Positions 1,604-17,340 of a stretch of DNA of 32,598 bases are shown here, in pieces. The stretch is from the NCBI RefSeq assembly GCF_008042075.1, contig NZ_RDBN01000043.1, positions 393,387 through 425,984 of the forward strand. The letters run 5' to 3'. Positions within the stretch are counted from its first letter, which is position 1; every line of letters starts with the position of its first letter. Source of the stretch: Streptomyces sp. UW30 (GTDB taxonomy: Bacteria; Actinomycetota; Actinomycetes; Streptomycetales; Streptomycetaceae). The notes beneath the pieces are model-generated. The model saw only the letters and a program-made list of their open reading frames with translations, did no database searches and was not told the origin of the DNA. Made by a program: the position numbers and the translations under genes.

Positions 1604-2626
1604 TCAGGAATTGTCCAGCGGCAGCCCGGGCGGGTTGACCTCCGACTTGGACACGGCCTCGTTGGACAGGTTCCAGGCGGCGAGCCACTTCGCGTACTGG
1701 CCGTTCTCGATCAGGTGGTTGATCGCGGCGGCGAGGGGCTCGGCGAGGCCGCTGTCCTTCTTGGCGGTCGCGGCGATCAGGCCCTGGAGCGTCGCCCCGG
1801 CGCCGGAGAACTGGCCCGCGATCCTGGTCGGGCTGGGCGTGCTCTTCGTCTGGGTGACGTGGTAGGAGAGGTTGGGGCTGGGGCCGAAGTAGGCGTCGAT
1901 CTTGCCGCTGTTGAGGGCCAGGTAGGTGCTGTTGTTGTCCTGGAAGTACTTGACCGTCAGCTTCTTGCCCTCCTTCTCCAGCCTGTCCTTCCACTCCAGC
2001 AGGATCCGCTCCTGGTTGGTGCCCGCACCGACGGACACGGTCTTGCCGGCGAGGGCCTTGTAGTCGCCGTCGAAGCTGAACTTCGAGTCCTTGAGCGCCT
2101 CGAAGGCGAGGTCGTCCTTGCGGTAGGAGGCGAACTCGTACTTCTGCTTGCGCTCCTCGGTGTCGGTGATGTTCGAGAAGCCGACGTTCACCTTGCCGCT
2201 GTCGATGCCGACGAAGAGGTTCTCCCAGGTGAACCGCTTGACCTCGGGCTCCAGGCCGAGGACGGCCGCGACCAGCCGGGCCAGGTCGATCTCGGAGCCG
2301 GTGAGGGTCTTCTGGTCGCTGCCCACGAAGCCCAGCGGCGGGGCCCCGGAGGGCAGGGTGCCGGAGCCGATGACCAGCTTGCCGCTCTTCTTGAGGGCGT
2401 CGGGCAGCTTCGCGCTGATGGACTTCACCTCGGACACCTTCAGGGTGGTCTCCTTGGCGGCACCGTTGGACAGTTGGCCGACGGTGACGGTGCCCCCGCT
2501 GTCGTTCGTCCTGGTGGCGGCGTCGCTGCTCCCACCGCAGGCGGCGAGCCCGGTGGCGAGGGTGGCGACCGCGGTCGCCGCGGTGATGCCGCGTATCAGG
2601 CTGCGTCGGGAGATGTGGGTGGGCAT
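1604..2626 (-). CDS. ABC transporter substrate-binding lipoprotein, polar amino-acid family
   Basis: This is a 340-residue extracytoplasmic solute-binding protein of family 3. The N-terminus has a signal peptide with paired arginines (RR at 7-8), a hydrophobic stretch and a lipobox LAAC with Cys30 as the lipidated residue, so it should be anchored on the outer face of the membrane. The mature part has family-typical segments (GFSNITDTEERKQKYEFA, VGAGTNQERILLEWKD, DAYFGPSPNLSYH). It is the first of three genes in the downstream part of the operon: the permease and ATPase precede it on the same strand and 68 bases separate it from the ATPase. The SAM riboswitch and leader peptide upstream of the operon suggest a sulfur-containing ligand such as cystine, methionine or a related amino acid. 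That is inference; other polar amino acids cannot be excluded. Confidence 0.9.
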   Translation of the reverse strand: MPTHISRRSLIRGITAATAVATLATGLAACGGSSDAATRTNDSGGTVTVGQLSNGAAKETTLKVSEVKSISAKLPDALKKSGKLVIGSGTLPSGAPPLGFVGSDQKTLTGSEIDLARLVAAVLGLEPEVKRFTWENLFVGIDSGKVNVGFSNITDTEERKQKYEFASYRKDDLAFEALKDSKFSFDGDYKALAGKTVSVGAGTNQERILLEWKDRLEKEGKKLTVKYFQDNNSTYLALNSGKIDAYFGPSPNLSYHVTQTKSTPSPTRIAGQFSGAGATLQGLIAATAKKDSGLAEPLAAAINHLIENGQYAKWLAAWNLSNEAVSKSEVNPPGLPLDNS

Positions 2627-2694: not shown

Positions 2695-3485
<791 letters not shown>

Positions 3486-3489
<4 letters not shown>

Positions 3490-4469
3490 ACGGCGGCCTC
3501 CCTGCGGATGTGGGCCCTGAGGTCGGTGAGACCGGTCCGCAGCCTCTGCAACGGGGTCGGCGGCAGGGAGCGCGTGGCGCCCCGGGCGTAGTACCGCTCG
3601 ACGTAGAACTGGACGACGGAGACGACGCTGGTGAGGATCAGGTACCAGACGGTGGCGACCATCAGCAGCGGCACGATGTCGCCGGGATAGGTGGACCCCA
3701 TGGACTGCGCGGAGCCGAACAGGTCGAGCAGGGAGACGTAGAAGACCAGCGAGGTGCCCTTGATCAGGCCGATGAGCTGGTTGACGTAGTTCGGCACGAT
3801 GGAGCGCAGCGCCTGCGGGAACACGATTCTGCGGAACTGGTAGCCCTTGGGCAGGCCGAGCGCGGCGGACGCCTCGTGCTGGCCCTGGTCGACGGAGAGG
3901 ACGCCGCCGCGGACGACCTCGGCGGCGTACGCGGACTCGTGCAGGCTGATGCCTACGACGGCGATGACCATGTCGGTGGCGAGCTTCGACTCGTCGAAGG
4001 AGAAGAAGGCGGGTCCGAAGGGGATGCCCACGCTCAGCGTCTTGTACAGGGCGCTGAAGTTGTAGAGGAACAGCAGCACCACGATCAGCGGGACGGAGCG
4101 GAACGCCCAGACGTAGACCCAGCTGATCGCGCGCAGCACCGGGCTCTTCGAGAGCCGGGCCAGTGCCAGCAGGACGCCGCCGAGGAGGCCCAACACCGCG
4201 CTGTAGGCGGTGACTTCGAGGGTGATGAGGAGTCCGTCGAGGATGGTGGGCCGCAGGAACCAGTAGCCGAAACGGTCCCACTGGTAGAAGGGGTTGGTCA
4301 CCAGGCCGTGGACGAACTGGGCCGCCAGGACCAGGACCACCGCGGTGGCGATCCAGCGGCCTGGCCGCCTCAGTGGCAGCACGTGCTGGGCCGCGAGCTG
4401 TTTCGGCGGGGCGTCGGCGGGCGGCGGTGCCTCGGCGAGGGAGACGACGGCGCCTGGGGGTTCACTCAT
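3486..4469 (-). CDS. Amino-acid ABC transporter permease
   Basis: This 327-residue inner-membrane permease is of the HisM/GlnP type. About 45 polar residues precede the first hydrophobic segment (WIATAVVLVLAAQFVHGLV); further membrane segments follow. A clear EAA loop (HEASAALGLPKGYQFRRI then FPQALRSIVPNY) contacts the ATPase. The sequence FRSVPLIVVLLFLYN is typical of the family. The ATG at 4469 has GGAG upstream and gives a normal length; an in-frame ATG 20 codons earlier exists but lacks a comparable site. A single permease gene implies a homodimeric channel. It is the first structural gene downstream of leader peptide 2, 183 bases away. Confidence 0.93.
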
Positions 4470-4652
4470 GGAGGGCTCCGGCAGGAGTCGGATGTCCCCG
4501 GAACGCGGCGCACGGCGCGGCGACGACAAGCCGCACTGCGGCTGCGGCTCGTCAGGACGCGGGAGGACGCACGGTCACCGGGGGGTGGGCGGACGACAGC
4601 ACACCGCCGAGGCGGTGTTCGTCAGGGAGTGCGGGGCAGCGGACGGGAGAAG

Positions 4653-4802
4653 TCAGCCGCGGCTGCGGGCACAGCCCGGTGCGGTACACAGTGCGCTGTT
4701 GACGCGGAGCAGATCGACGGCCCGGTCGGCGACGAACAGGGTCGCGTACGCCAGGGCGCGGCTCTGGGGGCGGCGTACGGCCGTCCTGGGAGCTGCGTCC
4801 AT
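4653..4802 (-). CDS. Leader peptide 2, between SAM riboswitch and ABC transporter
   Basis: A 49-codon frame contains DRAVDLLRVNSALCTAPGC near its end, a variant of the H-x-D-L-x-R-V-x-S-A-L-C leader motif in which His is replaced by Ala. Two Cys codons lie in the last third. The ATG at 4802 follows GGAAGAG at a spacing of about 11 bases; an upstream GTG four codons earlier is also possible. It is longer than the other leaders in this window. Its position directly after a SAM riboswitch means the same messenger could sense both S-adenosylmethionine and cysteine supply. Function is inferred from motif and position. Confidence 0.6.
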   Translation of the reverse strand: MDAAPRTAVRRPQSRALAYATLFVADRAVDLLRVNSALCTAPGCARSRG

Positions 4803-4820
4803 GGTGTCACTCACTCTTCC

Positions 4821-4835
4821 GGCCCCTTTGGGGCC
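4821..4835 (-). other. Short perfect hairpin next to the leader-peptide ribosome binding site
   Basis: GGCCCC, three-base loop, GGGGCC forms a perfect 6-bp hairpin on the minus-strand RNA, directly abutting the GGAAGAG ribosome binding site of leader peptide 2. It lies just downstream of the SAM riboswitch core, so it could belong to the expression platform (site sequestration) or be part of the aptamer's 3' extension. There is no U-run, which argues against simple intrinsic termination. Confidence 0.45.
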
Positions 4836-4946
4836 TTCGCGCTTACCGAAGTCATCCGGTCCGGTCGTCACCTGGGGCACCCCACCGCGATGCGAGGGTT
4901 GCCGGTCAGCGAGCCAGGGCTTGTCGCTGACGCTCATGACCGTTCT
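4836..4946 (-). promoter_or_regulatory. SAM riboswitch (SAM-IV/S-box-like, actinobacterial type)
   Basis: Read on the minus strand, the leader contains GGTCATGAG, CAGCGACAAGCCCTGGC, GCTGACCGGCAACCCTCGC, CGCGGTGGGGTGCCCCAGG and TGACGACC in order. This is the conserved core of the SAM-binding riboswitch found before sulfur-metabolism genes in actinobacteria (SAM-IV, which shares its ligand core with SAM-I). Helices are visible: GGTCGTCA at 4863-4870 on the plus strand pairs with TGACC-type sequence near 4935-4942, and the CAGCG/CGCTG arms enclose the GCAACC core. When SAM is abundant, the downstream leader peptide and ABC transporter should be switched off, pointing to a methionine/cysteine-related substrate. 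The exact subclass and ends are by eye; a covariance-model search was not possible. Confidence 0.82.
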
Positions 4947-4952
4947 GGGCCG

Positions 4953-4983
4953 TAAGTAAGACAGTTGCCCGAACGAATGTCAA
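4953..4983 (-). promoter_or_regulatory. Promoter of the SAM-riboswitch/transporter unit
   Basis: A perfect -35 TTGACA lies at 4978-4983 (minus strand), with CTTACT 17 bases or TACTTA 19 bases further on as -10. The predicted start near 4946 coincides with the first helix of the riboswitch, which supports both calls. This is an unusually consensus-like housekeeping promoter for such GC-rich DNA. Confidence 0.6.
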
Positions 4984-5971: not shown

Positions 5972-6070
5972 TCAGATCGCGCTGCAGACGCGGAGCAGAT
6001 CGATGTGACGGCGGGACGTGAGAAGGGGCGTACGGCTCACTCGACCGGTGACCGACTCAAGACGCCCCAT
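5972..6070 (-). CDS. Cysteine leader peptide 3, upstream of the GST-like gene
   Basis: The frame ends in SRRHIDLLRVCSAI followed by TGA, a clear member of the H-x-D-L-x-R-V-x-S-A leader family, with one Cys codon inside the conserved block. The ATG at 6070 (32 codons) has AGGG close upstream and abuts the operator at 6073-6095; an in-frame GTG at 6040 would give a 22-residue peptide and is an equally possible start. The GST-like gene begins 67 bases after the stop. Peptide identity is well supported by the motif; the start and the attenuator role are inferred. Confidence 0.65.
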   Translation of the reverse strand: MGRLESVTGRVSRTPLLTSRRHIDLLRVCSAI

Positions 6071-16956: not shown

Positions 16957-16975
16957 GCTGTAGGCTGGCCGACGC

Positions 16976-17175
16976 AGCTGGTTCGCCCCGTCCGCCAGGC
17001 GGGATGCGTCGCAAGAGGGAACCCGGTGGGAATCCGGGACTGCCCCGCAGCGGTGAGCGGGAACGACCGCCGTCATACGCACTGGGTCCGACGTACCGGC
17101 CCTGGGAAGCGACGGCCAGTAGGTGTCCTCACGGAGTGAGGACGTGCCCGCGAGTCCGAAGACCTGCCAACTGCC
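16976..17175 (+). promoter_or_regulatory. Cobalamin riboswitch controlling metE
   Basis: The metE leader shows the standard cobalamin aptamer. AAGAGGGAACCCGGTGGGAA and TCCGGGACTGCCCCGCAGC form the core, followed by a variable arm, CACTGGGTCC, CTGGGAAGCGACGGCCAGTA, a closed CCTCAC/GTGAGG helix, and the B12-box region with GCGAGTCCGAAGACCTGCCA near 17150-17169. A -10-like TAGGCT (16961-16966) immediately precedes it. Binding of adenosylcobalamin should lower expression of the B12-independent methionine synthase when vitamin B12 is present and MetH can work. About 165 bases separate the aptamer from the metE start and would hold the expression platform. Confidence 0.93.
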
Positions 17176-17340
17176 CCCGTACGAAGCACTCGTGCGCGGA
17201 CATCCCGGTGACCTCGAGGGCGGGTCGGCGTACACAACCGAGCGGACGGCCGTACGGTCGCTGCCCTTCGGTACGTCACCCCTTCGCGCTCTCGTCCCGT
17301 CCCCGGGATCTCAGGGATTCATCTCGCGAAGGAGATCTCC

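Follow-up and report, generated by a model that had tools for sequence, protein, structure and literature searches.

An RNA leader in Streptomyces sp. UW30 carries a SAM-IV riboswitch and a conserved leader open reading frame (ORF) in tandem, upstream of a single ABC importer. The elements lie in a 32,598-nucleotide stretch of DNA, hereafter called the window. Judged from sequence, the chances are about even that the region would work as a two-input, NOR-like leader for a sulfur-related importer, with SAM-IV gating translation of the leader and the leader reporting cysteine. With an aptamer score well clear of the cut-off and a leader frame that recurs in 79 of 79 orthologous loci, the arrangement goes beyond chance.

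For comparison we used the best 80 of 445 permease relatives by similarity. Of these orthologues, 79 have upstream DNA (L111 has only 104 bases upstream), and together with the window they form the 80 rows referred to below. The elements of the window, all on the minus strand, are as follows.

4978..4983, minus: TTGACA, -35-like element of the leader promoter, read from the sequence and found upstream of the leader in 80/80 rows
4955..4960, minus: CTTACT, possible -10 element of weak consensus, suggested by its sequence and 17-nt spacing to TTGACA
4834..4941, minus: SAM-IV riboswitch aptamer (RF00634, 97.4 bits against a cut-off of 38)
4821..4835, minus: hairpin GGCCCC-AAA-GGGGCC in the sequence from aptamer tail to leader start
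4653..4802, minus: 49-codon leader ORF, ...VDLLRVNSALCTAPGCARSRG (ATG 4802-4800, stop 4655-4653), kept in orthologues
4686..4688, minus: Cys codon TGT of the SALC motif, candidate stall codon (TGT in 80/80 rows)
4601..4618, minus: hairpin ACACCGC-CTCG-GCGGTGT, 3' of the leader stop, without a U-run (anchored search)
3486..4469, minus: ABC transporter permease, amino-acid (3-TM) type (TIGR01726, 61.5 bits, cut-off 42.2)
2695..3501, minus: ABC transporter ATPase (top-scoring model TcyN for cystine, 325.8 bits, short of the 406 cut-off)
1604..2626, minus: solute-binding protein, family 3 (PF00497)
5972..6070, minus: second leader ORF, ...SRRHIDLLRVCSAI, upstream of a GST-like gene (NF042934, 30.9 bits, cut-off 27)

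No substrate-level model for the permease scored above its own cut-off. The importer's neighbours include the GST-like gene, an Rrf2 regulator, a DszC/SfnB-like oxidoreductase, luciferase-like monooxygenases, an FMN reductase and a molybdopterin oxidoreductase, a neighbourhood consistent with organosulfur use. An Rfam scan found no second SAM-IV in the window, so the leader of the GST-like gene is without a riboswitch. The same scan recorded two cobalamin riboswitches in the window (16962-17185, plus strand, 86.0 bits; 22012-21871, minus strand, 32.9 bits; cut-off 31.5). Two further Cys-containing leader ORFs, RPHIDLQRVSAALCCS at about 1430-1311 and RRRHVDLARVSSSCCRCRI at 13684-13606 (both minus strand), lie upstream of luciferase-like monooxygenase genes and lack SAM-IV. 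The source genome holds nine places that exceed the NF042934 cut-off.

Leader and aptamer among permease orthologues

A first-pass annotation had read a TTGACA promoter and a SAM-IV- or S-box-like aptamer into this DNA, followed by a 49-codon leader and the permease. The Rfam covariance model identifies the aptamer as a genuine SAM-IV (E 7.6e-17), matched over model positions 1-116 with full coverage. Among the orthologues, 61 of 79 carry a SAM-IV above the gathering score on the permease strand. In the other 18, even a permissive scan up to E 1 brought up no SAM-IV on the permease strand; one of them, L088, has a single SAM-IV on the opposite strand. Eight of these 18 loci (L050, L060, L062, L071, L083, L084, L099 and L103) come from S. 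caniscabiei, stelliscabiei, scabiei, torulosus, neyagawaensis, europaeiscabiei, acidiscabies and niveiscabiei.

The leader, by contrast, is constant: an ORF with DLLRV[NS]SALC is present in 79/79 orthologues having upstream DNA, against 61/79 for the aptamer, which is thus optional. Mapped onto the permease tree, SAM-IV presence changes state eight times, at least four of them forced by well supported branches, and the leader not once. The aptamer is an add-on gained or lost around a constant leader core. The 18 loci without it retain the promoter and mostly the hairpin, and in three of them (L038, L040, L080) a piece resembling the aptamer 3' tail persists. By the test that the first-pass annotation had set for itself, riboswitch and leader co-occur in the orthologues too: 0 of the 61 SAM-IV keepers lack the leader.

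Codon-position analysis identifies VDLLRVNSALC as a segment of the leader maintained as peptide. Compared pairwise, the 52 leaders that are 49 codons long differ on average by 0.003/0.040/0.150 at positions 1/2/3 of the VDLLRVNSALC codons, and by 0.194/0.146/0.212 over codons 2-28. The third-position bias of the variation in VDLLRVNSALC argues that this segment is under selection as a peptide. Within it, Cys is encoded by TGT in 80/80 rows and Ala by GCA in 70/80, and GCA accounts for 112 of 2655 Ala codons (~4%) in 76 permease genes. Constraints on the RNA or on decoding may lie behind the GCA preference.

The window leader resembles the cis-regulatory attenuation leader peptides of NF042934, with 19.3 bits over profile positions 7-19, below the cut-off of 27; 13 of 14 comparison leaders match the model at E up to 0.05. 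Its position is that of the family, whose members are short ORFs immediately upstream of sulfur or amino-acid genes: it has 49 codons, and its stop lies 183 nt upstream of the permease ATG (4469). An additional in-frame GTG is present at 4814. The leader has two separated Cys codons and not the run of Cys codons of a cysteine attenuator. From the family resemblance and the one invariant Cys codon, we infer that it may sense cysteine.

Spacing, RNA structure and a proposed mechanism

The leader ATG lies 29-36 nt downstream of the aptamer end in 60 of 62 SAM-IV rows and 60 nt downstream in the other two. Downstream of the aptamer, the leader's start codon thus comes first and not the permease's, the position that characterizes riboswitch-controlled upstream ORFs (uORFs). 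The perfect GGCCCC/GGGGCC hairpin between aptamer and leader, earlier described as touching the ribosome binding site, exists, but it touches that site only roughly: it ends 18 nt upstream of the ATG, adjoins a purine-rich stretch and leaves the Shine-Dalgarno (SD)-like AGTGA beside the leader start uncovered. Its arms read GGCCC/GGGCC in 57/80 rows, and other paired arms (GGGTC/GACCC, CCGCC/GGCGG, GGCCT/AGGCC) occur in most of the remaining rows, aptamer-less loci included. Among mononucleotide shuffles of the same 42 nt, a fraction of 0.02 reach the window's hairpin; a value of 0.05 or lower was reached by just 5 of the 62 SAM-IV rows and by none of the 18 rows lacking the aptamer. Taken alone the hairpin is weak evidence, and its support lies in its constant place and in arm variants that stay paired.

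Folding found neither sequestration of the leader SD nor any clear switching there. In the best single-sequence fold, the aptamer 5' strand pairs with part of the leader start, an arrangement that would fit an ON switch and so speaks against the gate as proposed. Of the earlier suggestion that the riboswitch controls the leader's ribosome binding site, the positional part is supported by the constant spacing, and no clear structural switch was seen in folding. RNAalifold, run on 71/80 rows with nine left out for length or membership of the scab group, suggested a long-range pairing of the leader with the hairpin; this pairing involves invariant columns without covariation, and the best fold of the window itself lacks it.

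Downstream of the leader stop, an anchored search without shuffle control found a hairpin of at least 5 pairs in 77/80 rows. An intrinsic terminator at this point was considered and rejected, as the conserved hairpin has no U-run in the orthologue sequences. Between leader and permease, C exceeds G in 79/79 orthologues, a composition that suits Rho. Folding with a masked ribosome in three states (free, stalled, at stop) did not free the permease SD, whose unpaired probability ranged over 0-0.44 free, 0-0.27 stalled and 0-0.33 at stop. It is mostly paired throughout, and the downstream hairpin forms in all three states.

We propose the following mechanism. Transcription would start shortly upstream of the aptamer. 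SAM-IV, taken from its family match to bind SAM, would in the bound form keep ribosomes off the first start codon downstream, as its position suggests. When SAM is low the leader would be translated, and when charged Cys-tRNA is scarce the ribosome would slow at the invariant TGT, which stands behind the conserved DLLRV[NS]SAL segment. A slowed ribosome would hold open the C-rich stretch from leader to permease and so permit expression, either because Rho could not load there or because base pairing around the permease start would change; otherwise expression would be shut. Such a NOR-like gate would switch the importer on only with SAM and cysteine both low.

SAM-IV-linked short ORFs across Actinobacteria

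SAM-IV is present in 194 of 199 Streptomyces genomes. In 14 genomes chosen for having three or four SAM-IVs we followed 46 copies, judging gene relations among the other genomes by eye from N-termini. Fourteen are the core copy, upstream of a class-V-aminotransferase-like gene (seen in L001, L003 and L012). Of the 32 non-core copies, 29 stand before an in-frame HIDL/VDLL-type leader, at genes unrelated to one another, and three (L164, L199, L205) directly before a gene. The latter are lower-scoring matches (60.8-77.2 bits), possibly a divergent aptamer variant. Ten of the 29 leader-linked copies precede the permease and one (L156) a luciferase-like monooxygenase; ten have leaders of the kind SRRRHIDL...SCLC, several of them upstream of a lipoprotein ABC gene; four have leaders SRRHVDLLLV.SCLC; and four precede a GST-like gene, with leaders that end in SSAY and contain no Cys. 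The window holds relatives of the monooxygenase and GST leaders, both without SAM-IV, which points to a modular aptamer.

Two loci have SAM-IVs back to back, L089 (2559-2667 plus and 2284-2391 minus) and G040 C1 (8785196 plus and 8784920 minus). In each pair one SAM-IV stands before the permease leader and the other before the leader of the divergent GST-like gene. The core copies have a short ORF of another kind: a 6-codon ORF follows 45 of 45 examined (L001, L003-L032, L137-L150), in almost every case VSKRMR-stop (42 by pattern, plus L144), with VSKRMC-stop in L016 and VVQRMR-stop in L024 by eye. A GGGC..GCCC-like hairpin lies directly 3' of its stop in many copies. L175, from another family, reads VNHHRMRR-stop.

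Across the phylum, SAM-IV was found in 21 of 246 sampled genomes. A second genus carries it in 39/39 genomes, from each of which one ~111-nt SAM-IV was picked after the first poly-Cys case had been seen. Behind 30 of these 39 come an SD and a short closed ORF containing one Cys or more, and behind 27 a short ORF with at least two Cys codons, of which 20 start MCCC by our own count. For the two-Cys count, 200 runs of first-order resampling averaged 0.365 and peaked at 3/39, and 25 other SAM-IVs from the same genomes yielded two such uORFs. A strong AGGAGG stands a few nucleotides past the aptamer tail, directly before ATG-TGT-TGT. Many of the pairs lie upstream of a gene that reads TKQ[IV]HAGQ and, judged by eye, resembles O-acetylhomoserine sulfhydrylase. 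RNAalifold found no consensus structure in these leaders (energy 0, 24 rows), and a by-eye idea that the Cys codons pair before the metZ-type SD was dropped.

In a third genus, where 39 of 40 genomes have a match, we considered the 28 loci newly returned. A TKQ[IV]HAGQ-type gene starts 41-54 nt past the aptamer tail in 15 of them, and a Cys-containing uORF starts 36-41 nt past it in 13. The same slot behind the aptamer thus holds either a gene or a uORF. Together with the constant spacing in Streptomyces, this slot suggests by position that SAM-IV would govern the leader start.

Alternative readings, known systems and meaning

Several observations speak against the gate. The window leader falls below the NF042934 cut-off and has only two Cys codons, GST-like gene leaders have SSAY ends that lack Cys, the aptamer is missing from 18 of 79 orthologues, the permease SD is mostly paired in all folding states, and the U-run is absent. 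Some of these would fit two independent controls on one transcript, with SAM-IV acting on transcription (through Rho or pausing) or on RNA stability, the leader responding separately to cysteine, and the leader start ungoverned by the riboswitch. That the 18 aptamer-less orthologues keep leader, promoter and mostly the hairpin agrees with such a division, as does the lack of leader SD sequestration in folding. We nonetheless think it unlikely, given the constant 29-36 nt between aptamer and leader and, in the second genus, the AGGAGG that closely follows the aptamer tail and immediately precedes ATG-TGT-TGT. The leader might instead be an HIDL/DLLRV-type arrest peptide that senses redox, a sulfur compound or a drug, its Cys being incidental. 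Peptide-level conservation of VDLLRVNSALC and the Cys-less SSAY ends of SAM-IV-linked GST-type leaders would suit this, but most relatives end in Cys-containing segments (SCLC, ALCC, CSCLC), TGT is invariant, and plain poly-Cys leaders stand behind the same aptamer in the second genus; we regard it as improbable.

That the aptamer is a relic in the source genome and the leader alone regulates is very improbable: its presence changes eight times on the tree, at least four changes being forced, yet it matches the full model at 97.4 bits in the window and is kept in 61/79 orthologues. Hardly credible at all is that GC-rich DNA merely happens to leave a frame open after the riboswitch. The window has many long open frames, and in most rows the hairpin by itself is close to chance level, but conservation in 79/79 orthologues and the codon-position pattern led us to reject this reading, and the family match also stands against it.

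The gated cysteine leader has relatives in part. In the Salmonella mgtA leader, Mg2+ is sensed by RNA folding and a second signal by the proline-rich mgtL leader peptide. It is alike in that a single leader takes in two signals, one through the fold of the RNA and the other through a leader peptide, and differs in its signals, its organism and its lack of a SAM aptamer. The Mbox of Mycobacterium tuberculosis (Mtb) pe20 controls a conserved small uORF through Rho-dependent termination (PMC12810186). As described there, the first ORF regulated by the riboswitch is again a small uORF before an operon in an actinobacterium; the aptamer is of the magnesium type, the uORF is not a cysteine leader, and responses were measured there. 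The B12 riboswitches of Mtb metE and ppe2 likewise act with translated uORFs on the downstream gene (PMC11260477); their aptamers differ, the uORFs as portrayed in that account do not sense an amino acid, and the ppe2 relay is re-initiation at a stop-start overlap.

Cysteine attenuators were predicted earlier (PMC1262725). Mycobacterial polycysteine sORFs act as attenuators (Canestrari et al. 2020, via PMC9094748, PMC13236596 and PMC9031893). They share with the window Cys codons in a short ORF upstream of sulfur genes, and are cysteine-responsive there; being leaderless, they have no riboswitch ahead, and they carry Cys runs in place of DLLRVNSALC. The Rhodobacterales cysS motif uORFC-8-2 is also an attenuator uORF with cysteine codons, in alpha-proteobacteria, and as reported uses an intrinsic terminator and no riboswitch (PMC8632094). 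The S. lividans SAM-IV upstream of cysteine desulfurase is mentioned in PMC8079986 in a passage that names no uORF. Riboswitch-controlled uORFs and cysteine attenuators are thus each known. Of their joining the first-pass annotation knew no description, and a search of open-licence literature, which covered few subscription papers, yielded none that links SAM-IV with a cysteine leader.

Riboswitches and leader-peptide attenuators are usually seen as alternatives, and here both stand in one leader. The order of the elements would let one control the other's ribosome access, and the arrangement recurs. For the extra SAM-IV copies of Streptomyces the likely target is a uORF and not an enzyme gene, and the 18 of 79 orthologues without an aptamer offer a natural comparison for what the second input contributes. 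It is possible, though somewhat doubtful, that SAM-IV-gated cysteine leaders form a widespread actinobacterial circuit, with aptamers placed repeatedly and in different lineages before cysteine-sensing uORFs to give a NOR gate. Its types would be HIDL/DLLRV leaders in Streptomyces, poly-Cys leaders in the second genus and C-terminal Cys leaders in the third. If so, ribosome loading would depend on SAM and ribosome progress on cysteine, a NOR over two end products of sulfur metabolism.
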